Program-made: the position numbers and the translations under genes
From: Halobacteriales archaeon YIM A00010
GTDB lineage: Archaea > Halobacteriota > Halobacteria > Halobacteriales > Haloarculaceae
Assembly: GCA_025041175.1 (NCBI GenBank)
Contig: JAKCFJ010000001.1
Location: forward strand, 2,559,526 to 2,623,525
Direction: 5' to 3'
DNA: 64,000 bases
The notes under the pieces: generated by a model
Told to the model about the DNA's origin: nothing
Databases searched by the model: none
What the model saw: only the letters and a program-made list of their open reading frames with translations
In this document: positions 33,105 through 54,927 of the stretch, piece by piece
Position numbering within the stretch: the stretch's first letter is position 1
How the letters are laid out: every line of letters starts with the position of its first letter

Positions 33105-34766
33105 TCAGTCGTCGGTCGGTAGCCCCGACTCAGACTCCGACCGCTCTGTGTGTGACATGGTGGTGGCGGGAGCGGCGTCTGCCTCGTCACCGACGTGTTG
33201 CTGGGCGACGCGGTAGCTGCTGTAGAGGATGACGAGCAAGAACACCGAGAACGGGAGCGCCATCGTCACTGACAGCGATTCGATGGCGCTGAATCCGTCG
33301 AGCTGGAGCGACACCATTCCGAACACGGCCAGCAGCGCGCCCCACCACGCGCGGTTTCGCGGATTGGGGTTTTCAGTGCCGAGCGTGATCGCAGACAGCA
33401 TGAACACGGCCGAATCGAGCGAGGTGATGATGTACCCCGCGATGACGAGCGCGAACAACACCGCGAGCACCGTTCCGTAGGGAGTGATGTTGAGCGCCGT
33501 GGCGATCGCCGCCGGTTCGCCGGCTTCCATCGCTTGGGCGATCTGTTGTTGGTTGCCGGGGGCGAGCACCCACCCGCCGATGAGCGAGTGTTGAATCCAC
33601 GTGAAAATCGTGGGGACCACGACGAGCACGGTGAACATCTCTCGCAACGTTCGGCCCTTCGAGATGCGAGCAACGAAGCTCCCGACGAAGATGCTCCATG
33701 CGGCCCACCACGCCCACCAGAAGCCGGTCAGGCCGGCTGCCCCATTGGCGCCGCCGTTCGGGGCGGTGTACAGCGTCAGCCGGAACATCTCGCTGAGCCA
33801 GACCCCCGTCGCGTCCATTCCCAGCTCGAACATGTAGAGGGTCGGTCCCACCACGACGAGTATCCCCATCGAAAGGGCGATGAACACGACCGTCGCGCGG
33901 GCAGCGTTGCGAATCCCCGAACGAAGCCCGAGCCAAACGTCCAGCAGGAAGACGATCCCGATGAGTCCGAAGACCGCGTAGGTCAGGATCGTCGCATCGA
34001 AACCGAACACGCGCCCGAGGATGGCGGACATCGTCTGTGCGCTGAATCCGAGCGTCGTCGCGATCCCGCCGATGATGGCGATGAGTGCCGCCGCATCGAC
34101 CAGCCAGTTAAAAGCAGCCCTCGAACTCACCCTGTCAGTGAGCCGATCGGGAAGCCAGTCCAGAACGCGGTTACCGGTGAGCCAATCGGGAAGCCGGTCC
34201 TGAACACGGATGCCGGTGAGCATCGAGCTGATCTTGTACTCGTTCACACCGTAGGTGTACACGGTGATCCCGAACGCCACTGCGACGGGAAGATACCACA
34301 TCGCCAGTCCGGGGAACACTTCGTGAATAAACATGAACGCCAGCGCCATCGACTCGGTGGACGCACCCTGGACCGGCGCGGGCGAGGGCGGCGATTGAAC
34401 GATCTGGATCGGCTCGGCGACCCCCCAGATGAGGATGGACGCGCCAAAGCCGACCGTGAACACCATCGATACCCACGAAAACAGCCCGAACTCCGGCTCG
34501 GCATCCGGACCGCCGATGCGGATCCGGCCGTATTTCGAGATCATCAACAACACCACGCCGATCAACAACACGAATCCGAGCAGGATGAACCACCACTCGA
34601 AGTAGGTGAGTATCCAGTCCTGCGCGTCGGTGAGCGTGTCGCTCAGAAACTTCGGAGCCAGAAGCCCGACGCCACCCAACGCGAGCATCACGGCCATTGT
34701 TACACCGAACAGTATCCGCTCGGACCACGAGGTCTCCTCTAGACCCAAAACGTACCACGGTCGCAT
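33105..34766 (-). CDS. BCCT-family (betaine/carnitine/choline) transporter
   Basis: A 553-residue, 12-TM secondary transporter for quaternary amines, probably osmoprotectant uptake. Signature regions are SMVFTVGFGASILIWGVAEPI, GLTGFWWAWWAAWSIFVGSFVARISKGRTLREM (the conserved TM8 and RxSKGRT loop) and ITSLDSAVFMLSAITLGTENP. The loop after TM5 holds a tandem 13-residue repeat (RVQDRLPDWLTGN / RVLDWLPDRLTDR). The C-terminal tail is hydrophilic. I chose the ATG at 34766; a TTG at 34772 is possible. The TGA stop is a MITE target duplication. Confidence 0.88.
   Translation of the reverse strand: MRPWYVLGLEETSWSERILFGVTMAVMLALGGVGLLAPKFLSDTLTDAQDWILTYFEWWFILLGFVLLIGVVLLMISKYGRIRIGGPDAEPEFGLFSWVSMVFTVGFGASILIWGVAEPIQIVQSPPSPAPVQGASTESMALAFMFIHEVFPGLAMWYLPVAVAFGITVYTYGVNEYKISSMLTGIRVQDRLPDWLTGNRVLDWLPDRLTDRVSSRAAFNWLVDAAALIAIIGGIATTLGFSAQTMSAILGRVFGFDATILTYAVFGLIGIVFLLDVWLGLRSGIRNAARATVVFIALSMGILVVVGPTLYMFELGMDATGVWLSEMFRLTLYTAPNGGANGAAGLTGFWWAWWAAWSIFVGSFVARISKGRTLREMFTVLVVVPTIFTWIQHSLIGGWVLAPGNQQQIAQAMEAGEPAAIATALNITPYGTVLAVLFALVIAGYIITSLDSAVFMLSAITLGTENPNPRNRAWWGALLAVFGMVSLQLDGFSAIESLSVTMALPFSVFLLVILYSSYRVAQQHVGDEADAAPATTMSHTERSESESGLPTDD
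34137..34214. repeat. 39-bp imperfect tandem duplication in the BCCT gene
   Basis: Two adjacent 39-bp units (34137-34175 and 34176-34214), sharing blocks such as ATCGGGAAGCC, encode two 13-residue copies in a cytoplasmic loop of the transporter. A third partial copy (GGTGAGC) follows. The unit length keeps frame. Confidence 0.8.
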
Positions 34767-50384: not shown

Positions 50385-50825
50385 ATGCCGTCCGGGTATT
50401 ACGAGGATATCGAGATCGGTGCGACGCGTGAGTTCGGAAGCTACACCGTCGAGAAAGAGGAGATCATCTCCTTTGCCGAGCAGTACGATCCCCAGCCCTT
50501 CCACGTGGATGAGTCTGCGGCTGAGGATTCGATTTTCGGTGAACTCGTCGCTAGTGGGTGGCACACCGCCGCGATGACGATGCGGATGCTCGTCGATCAC
50601 CGCCTCGAAGACGATCGCTCGATGGGGGCCGTCGGTATCGATGAGCTGCGGTGGAAACAGCCCGTTCGACCGGGGGAGACGCTCTCTGTGCGGACCGAAG
50701 TCGTGGACAAAGAGCCGTGGGACGACGATCTCGGACTCGTCTGCTCGCGCACGACCGTCTTCGCCGACGAACGCGAGGTCATGTCCATGACCGGCAACGT
50801 GCTCTATCAGAGACGGGCGGAGTGA
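50385..50825 (+). CDS. MaoC-like hydratase (hotdog fold)
   Basis: A 146-residue single-hotdog protein with the hydratase signature: YTVEKEEIISFAEQYDPQPFHVDESAAEDSIFGELVASGWHTAAMTMRMLVD, with the catalytic Asp/His in DPQPFHVD. Other conserved parts are DELRWKQPVRPGETLSVRTEV. It hydrates enoyl-CoA type substrates or is involved in related lipid metabolism. The ATG at 50385 is the usual start. It is followed by the CAU tRNA gene. Confidence 0.87.
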   Translation: MPSGYYEDIEIGATREFGSYTVEKEEIISFAEQYDPQPFHVDESAAEDSIFGELVASGWHTAAMTMRMLVDHRLEDDRSMGAVGIDELRWKQPVRPGETLSVRTEVVDKEPWDDDLGLVCSRTTVFADEREVMSMTGNVLYQRRAE

Positions 50826-50874
50826 CACCCGGCACCGCAGAGTTAAAGAGAGCCGCCCGAAAAGAACCACCCGG

Positions 50875-51010
50875 GGGCCCTTAGCTTAGTCTGGTCAAAG
50901 CGATCCGCTCATAACGGATTGATCGCTGGTTCGAAAGGGCCCCATTAGCGTCTGGTCAAAGCGATCCGCTCATAACGGATTGATCGCTGGTTCGAATCCG
51001 GCAGGGCCCA
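50875..51010 (+). tRNA. CAU-anticodon tRNA with 61-bp internal tandem duplication
   Basis: The outer parts give a complete 75-nt tRNA (acceptor GGGCCCT / AGGGCCC with discriminator A, anticodon CAT in CTCATAA, T arm GCTGGTTCGAATCCGGC) if a 61-nt middle portion is left out. That middle portion repeats the D/anticodon/T region: 50889-50935 and 50950-50996 are identical 47-bp copies. The first copy lacks the 3' half of its T stem; the second lacks a proper D stem and 5' acceptor pairing. The acceptor stem fits tRNA-Ile2 (CAU) better than elongator Met, but I am not certain. It may be an intron-like arrangement or a defective duplication. Confidence 0.65.
50889..50996. repeat. 47-bp direct repeat pair inside the CAU tRNA gene
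   Basis: Identical 47-bp units at 50889-50935 and 50950-50996, separated by 14 bp. They contain the D-loop, the anticodon arm and half of the T arm. The spacer (AGGGCCCCATTAGC) resembles a shared acceptor/5' tRNA piece. Confidence 0.9.
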
Positions 51011-53879: not shown

Positions 53880-54878
53880 TTATCGACCGAGTTCGGCCAG
53901 CAGTCGCCCGAGATGGAGCCGGTCGTTCGTTCCTTCGGTGAGTTCCACGTCCACCTCTCCAGCGAGTCGGTGTATCGCGGCGAGTTTCTGACCTGAGTAC
54001 CGCGAGCGTGCGACCGAAAGGATGTCCGAAAGCACTTCGGTGCCGCTGTAGCCGTCTTCGATGAGGAGATTGTCGAGCGTATTCCGTGCATCGGTGAACT
54101 CGCCGTCTTCGGCAGCAGTGAGCATCTCCTCGACGGAGTCAGTGAGCAACACCTCTCCGAGCGCTTCGTAGGCGGCCGTCATCGTCACCTCCCCGTGTTC
54201 CTCGAACGCGGTTTGGGCGCCGAGGATCGCCCGGCGGAGATCACCGCCGGCGTAGCCAGCGATGTACTCGACGCCGTCGTCCTCGTATTCGACGCCTTCC
54301 GTCCGGAGGATCCCCGAGAGCACCGTCACGATCTCGTCGTGGGTTGGCGCGCGCACCGGGACAGTGAAACACCGCGATCGCAGCGGCTCGATCAGCGTTG
54401 CGGGCTGGCGGGTGGTGATGACGAACTGGGTGGTCTGGTGATATTGCTCCATGATCCGGCGCAGCGCCTGTTGGAAATCCTCGCGGATCGATTCGGCGTT
54501 GTCCAGCAGGATCGTTTTGTACGTCCCCGTGACGGGCGCGTACCCCGCCGACTCTTTGAGCACGTGGTTGATCATCTCCCGCTTCGAGAGCCGGCTCCGC
54601 CCGGTGAGAAACGGCGCGAACCGCGGATCGTTTTTGATCTCCGTTTTCGTCCGAGAGAACACGTCGTCGACGTTGATCTCGATGAGATCGTTGTCGGGAT
54701 CCTCGTGGGTCTCGGCGGCGAGCGCACGAACGGCAGCGGTCTTTCCGGTTCCCTGTGGTCCGGCGAGGATGAGGTTCATCGGCTCGTCGACCGCCCGGGA
54801 CAACCCATCGCGCACCTCCTGCTGTGGAAGCTCGTCGACGGTGGGTTGGTGGGACTCGATCCACAGCGGCGCGTCCAT
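53880..54878 (-). CDS. rfcB: Replication factor C small subunit
   Basis: A 332-residue clamp-loader subunit. The AAA+ core has Walker A GPQGTGKTAAV, a Walker B-like TILLDNAES (instead of DEADAL), sensor/SRC region LIEPLRSRCFTVPVRAP and the C-terminal collar helices (GTEVLSDILSVARSRYSGQKLAAIHRLAGEVDVEL). The modified Walker B and the DNAE motif match the second small subunit, RfcB, of haloarchaea. It loads PCNA on DNA with the RFC large subunit. The ATG at 54878 matches homologues (MDAPLWIES). Confidence 0.82.
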   Translation of the reverse strand: MDAPLWIESHQPTVDELPQQEVRDGLSRAVDEPMNLILAGPQGTGKTAAVRALAAETHEDPDNDLIEINVDDVFSRTKTEIKNDPRFAPFLTGRSRLSKREMINHVLKESAGYAPVTGTYKTILLDNAESIREDFQQALRRIMEQYHQTTQFVITTRQPATLIEPLRSRCFTVPVRAPTHDEIVTVLSGILRTEGVEYEDDGVEYIAGYAGGDLRRAILGAQTAFEEHGEVTMTAAYEALGEVLLTDSVEEMLTAAEDGEFTDARNTLDNLLIEDGYSGTEVLSDILSVARSRYSGQKLAAIHRLAGEVDVELTEGTNDRLHLGRLLAELGR

Positions 54879-54927
54879 ACCCATCACTTGGCCCAAACGG
54901 GTAAGAATCGGTCGGTTCTTCGATCGA

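Follow-up and report, generated by a model that had tools for sequence, protein, structure and literature searches.

How does a cell make a tRNA whose only gene is interrupted by a copy of itself? The tRNA-Ile2 (CAU) locus of Halobacteriales archaeon YIM A00010, a salt-loving archaeon of the genus Halocatena, which lies in the 64,000-nt stretch of DNA analyzed here (the window), raises this question in an acute form: a lesion in the sole gene of an essential tRNA should halt translation of every AUA codon. The lesion is genuine and uncommon, in an essential tRNA gene present as a single copy, and we argue below that a young tandem duplication most likely produced it.

The locus is built around two identical 47-bp units whose starts are 61 bp apart. 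An earlier note on this DNA had the coordinates, the repeat length, the spacing and the expected 75-nt product right, as judged by repeat search, ARAGORN and the sister genes. The features are as follows.

50842–50868, plus strand: putative promoter elements GTTAAAG and CCGAAAA upstream of tRNA-Ile2 (flanks compared with sister loci)
50875–51010, plus strand: tRNA-Ile2 (CAU) locus, 136 bp, with a 61-bp internal tandem duplication (ARAGORN with introns allowed; sister-gene comparison)
50875–50943, plus strand: copy 1 read as a tRNA (Rfam, 37.7 bits)
50889–50935, plus strand: repeat copy 1, 47 bp, from the D-loop to the T-loop (100% identical to copy 2)
50936–50949, plus strand: linker, 14 nt, AGGGCCCCATTAGC (comparison with the 75-nt gene)
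50938–51010, plus strand: copy 2 read as a tRNA (ARAGORN; Rfam, 33.7 bits at 50939–51010)
50950–50996, plus strand: repeat copy 2, 47 bp (100% identical to copy 1)

In the linker AGGGCCCCATTAGC, the 3′ acceptor strand of copy 1 is fused to the 5′ acceptor and D-stem strand of copy 2; compared with a complete tandem copy, TCCGGC and TTA are missing and one or two bases are added. With introns allowed, ARAGORN treats 50875–51010 as a single tRNA(CAU) that is interrupted after position 39 by a 61-nt insert; with introns disallowed, it reports copy 2 only (50938–51010). Because the 47-bp units are identical, there are 48 equivalent 61-nt deletions, each of which yields the same 75-nt gene. The units are the sole direct-repeat family in the 901 bases around the locus. 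The strongest tandem array of the window as a whole lies at 34138–34221 (39-bp unit, 2.2 copies, 86% match).

As the gene stands, neither copy forms an intact cloverleaf. Copy 1 keeps a 7-bp acceptor, the D-arm and the anticodon arm, and the 3′ strand of its T-stem is absent; its Rfam alignment skips the T-arm. Copy 2 keeps the anticodon arm and the T-arm, with a scrambled D-arm whose stem is defective and a 6-bp acceptor. The intact sister gene scores 68.8 bits in Rfam, against 37.7 and 33.7 bits for copies 1 and 2, in agreement with the claim in the earlier note that each copy alone is defective.

Removal of the 61 nt leaves a 75-nt tRNA-Ile2 that is letter-identical in four of six sister genomes; the 75-nt Ile2 of the other two differs by two bases. 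This match of the outer 75 nt to the sister Ile2 genes, the CAU anticodon and the presence of TiaS identify the gene as tRNA-Ile2. TiaS makes agmatidine on tRNA-Ile2, and its reading frame is open in this genome (PF08489, 130.8 bits). No second Ile2 gene was found in the 5.97-Mb genome, either in the tRNA listing or in searches with both gene halves at up to three mismatches, which gave one match each. According to the earlier note, another intact CAU gene sharing the acceptor stem would show this copy to be dispensable; none was found in the genome. The remaining two listed CAU genes (L022 and L026) resemble initiator tRNA-Met by sequence; elongator tRNA-Met and tRNA-Trp are missed by the Rfam scan, probably owing to long introns. 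A large secondary contig of the same genome (C2, 1.02 Mb) has divergent tRNA genes of its own (Asn-GUU-like, Lys-UUU and initiator-like Met-CAU; L019, L026 and L046).

AUA makes up 3 of the 108 Ile codons in nine ORF stretches of the window, one of which (50387–50824) was read out of frame and contributed no AUA. One AUA falls in 53880–54896, which by eye resembles a replication factor C small subunit and suggests that the codon occurs in a core gene. Since only one Ile2 gene was found, TiaS is present and AUA codons are in use, the cell should require a working Ile2. To obtain it, the host must lose a repeat at the DNA or RNA level, or else make do with a damaged tRNA.

All six sister Halocatena genomes carry an intact 75-bp Ile2 gene; the relatives in the conserved-core scan were Halocatena marina, Halocatena pleomorpha, Actinarchaeum halophilum and Halobacteriales archaeon YIM A00013. 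In the two nearest sisters (L048 and L050), the intact gene stands between the same upstream and downstream genes, and the promoter elements GTTAAAG and CCGAAAA are kept. A scan of 391 Halobacteria genomes revealed no Ile2-type duplication elsewhere, and the linker was not found anywhere else in the seven Halocatena genomes, this one included, with up to three mismatches allowed. By these sequence comparisons, the duplicated state is derived and is unique to this genome among the 391 haloarchaeal genomes scanned. All differences from the sister genes are confined to the duplication junction, while the copies and the outer parts are unchanged. Complete identity of the copies, together with outer parts that match those of the sisters, marks the duplication as young.

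The adjacent identical copies here and the single copies in relatives are what a tandem duplication leaves behind. The layout resembles that of ordinary tandem tRNA duplications, such as that of initiator tRNA-Met in two other genomes of the order, where the genes appear to lie in close tandem (three listed loci, whose matched stretch includes a run of N). Unlike in those duplications, the copies here have a GGGCCC in common, through which they overlap, and both inner copies are incomplete. Our literature searches, which left most subscription papers outside their reach, returned no relevant work on partial tandem duplication of archaeal tRNA genes, and only general intron papers for nested tRNA genes.

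The shared GGGCCC suggests a route to the duplication. This acceptor sequence is its own reverse complement, so an identical, directly oriented hexamer lies at either end of the gene. Replication that became misaligned or switched template across these gene-end repeats would duplicate about 68 bp, which scrambling of the junction, with TCCGGC and TTA lost and CA gained, would cut to 61 bp. An alternative junction just 3′ of the gene, in which GGGCCCAT would be joined to TAGC with one extra C, fits equally well. With all differences confined to it, the junction may be the product of a single event. The outcome would be a single transcript whose outer ends pair as one tRNA, with the inner 61 nt surplus.

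The earlier note had offered two readings of the locus: damage by a recent tandem duplication or integration scar, or an intron after the anticodon. A recent tandem duplication is borne out by the sisters, which have the intact 75-bp gene (in two of them beside the same genes), and by the copies, which are still identical. We rejected an integration scar: the flanks are as in the sisters, and the locus has no match in haloarchaeal viral contigs. A plasmid and phage search with the locus likewise gave only weak, unrelated bacterial tRNA-type matches and no haloarchaeal virus or plasmid.

The intron reading finds no backing in the known sequence rules. In a canonical bulge-helix-bulge (BHB) motif, two 3-nt bulges separated by a 4-bp helix lie at the exon-intron borders, and the intron is removed by the splicing endonuclease EndA. 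For a BHB to form between two identical copies, the four bases of its central helix have to be self-complementary, with arms that pair on either side. In the 37/38 register, the central word is CTCA, which makes none of the four central pairs, and the copies face each other as a symmetric 7×7 internal loop. A canonical intron at 37/38 was rejected on this ground, as it lacks a central helix and fails the BHB scan. The same scan detects the motif at 37/38 in the intron-containing tRNAs of this genome, Gln-UUG and Glu-CUC, and, among seven Ile2 introns from other genera, in six. The sole formal BHB falls in the register after nucleotide 52, in the T-stem, with centre GATC, four central pairs and 6-pair arms. 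Three of the five inner pairs in each arm are G-U, neither arm being free of them, and enforcing the motif costs 18 kcal/mol above the best fold. Such a motif is attained by 1.4% of shuffled repeats, and 8 of the 46 tRNAs of the genome (about one in six) would match if duplicated. We therefore rejected it as a splice motif, given its dependence on G-U pairs, its energetic penalty and its occurrence at the genomic base rate. In sum, the locus yields a normal tRNA upon removal of the insert and lacks the bulges and 4-bp helix of a BHB intron. We consider it probable that it is a recent tandem duplication and not a true intron.

Ile2 introns of about 28–50 nt occur at 37/38 in several related genera (seven listed loci). 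Sister species have no Ile2 introns, and such introns have been gained and lost within the family. The insert here is like the canonical 37/38 archaeal introns, which are also found in Ile2 of other haloarchaeal genera and in Gln and Glu of this genome, in being surplus RNA within a tRNA gene that leaves a normal tRNA once it is taken out. It differs from them in that it copies the tRNA itself, has a cut site undefined over 48 registers, has no central helix and has no counterpart elsewhere in the genus. Permuted and split archaeal tRNA genes share with the locus an unusual order of halves, since the inner segment is a 3′ half followed by a 5′ half. In contrast to such genes, the halves here are on one transcript, the outer order is normal and the inner ends have no BHB to join them. 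A permuted tRNA gene was rejected as well, since the outer halves are in normal order; the scan found no terminal BHB. In eukaryotes, a segmental duplication can give rise to a functional intron (Hellsten et al. 2011, as cited in PMC11782384). There too, a duplicated exon segment becomes removable because its two ends match in sequence; that system is spliceosomal, whereas EndA depends on a structure that this duplication does not plainly provide.

How, then, might Ile2 be supplied? Our first choice, held tentatively when taken alone, is that working Ile2 would come from chromosome copies that have collapsed to the 75-bp gene. The 47-bp direct repeats would recombine in some chromosome copies and restore the gene, and from it Ile2. 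This is the simpler route, because direct repeats of 47 bp are an ideal substrate for deletion and haloarchaea carry their chromosome in many copies; work on haloarchaea has documented polyploidy, heterozygous cells and gene conversion (PMC4056108). The same process counts against it: gene conversion evens out chromosome copies in Haloferax (PMC4056108), so a mixed state should quickly resolve to the intact gene. As the assembly contains the damaged form only, collapse would require that the event be very young, that the mixture be balanced or that the duplicated form truly function. We place removal from the RNA and use of copy 2 next, with an artefact close behind.

Removal from the RNA would make the 61-nt unit a newborn intron, with EndA cutting both copies at the same place, in any of the 48 registers, to give the 75-nt Ile2. 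Folding is in its favor. The outer acceptor pairs have a probability of about 1 in the folded precursor, and a cloverleaf carrying the 61-nt insert at 37/38 is 3.7 kcal/mol less stable than the best fold (−48.2 versus −51.9). Because the outer acceptor outcompetes both inner ones, the transcript is predicted to behave as one tRNA with an insert, and together with this energy gap this prediction makes removal at the RNA level possible in the model, albeit without a known recognition motif. The junction changes knock out both inner copies and spare the outer tRNA. In addition, the genome has real introns (Gln, Glu) and an EndA with an open frame, Ile2 introns at 37/38 are known in relatives of other genera, and the α′2 EndA of A. 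fulgidus cuts a bulge-helix-loop at 37/38 in full-length pre-tRNA (PMC6379350). The EndA of this genome, with two fused domains, fits the α′2 type, but broad specificity is reported only for (αβ)2 and ε2 enzymes (PMC6379350). This last point, the 7×7 loop at 37/38 and the poor quality of the register-52 motif, with its G-U pairs, its cost and its base rate, make RNA removal unlikely in our estimation. Still more doubtful is the stronger form of the idea, in which the locus is a tRNA intron at birth: the outer fold would dominate, the RNA would lose the tandem copy, and functional Ile2 would arise without a canonical splice motif.

Direct use of copy 2 seems about as unlikely as RNA removal. 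RNase P and tRNase Z would release a 73–74-nt tRNA that decodes AUA poorly but sufficiently. Despite its defective D-arm, copy 2 keeps the anticodon, T-arm, acceptor, A73, and the tertiary GG and T-loop parts; both ARAGORN and Rfam accept it as a tRNA, and AUA is rare in the counted ORFs. However, its D-stem is nearly gone, its Rfam score is half that of the intact gene, and the linker, in competition with the outer 5′ end, pairs with the 3′ acceptor at a probability of about 0. We know of no cytosolic archaeal tRNA of this sort. A sequencing or assembly artefact, or a minority allele in the consensus, would leave a true gene of a plain 75 bp or two full tandem genes. An essential single gene that looks broken, in one genome only and with perfect copies, invites this suspicion, but the linker has bases missing from the intact gene, so real molecules with the junction must have been read. 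Furthermore, the locus is on a 2.86-Mb contig of a seven-contig assembly, which suggests long reads spanning the 136 bp, and the EndA and TiaS reading frames are open. We regard an artefact as improbable. Returning to repeat collapse, we would give an even chance to its combination with a recent lineage-specific duplication as one explanation of the locus.

The novelty lies in the case itself, with no demonstrated mechanism. Should neither RNA splicing nor DNA collapse hold, the locus would be a cautionary case for genome assembly. If the surplus unit is spliced from the RNA, it would offer a direct view of the birth of a tRNA intron and of the looseness of the haloarchaeal splicing enzyme. 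If instead the DNA collapses back, it would present a polyploid archaeon that carries a damaged essential gene.
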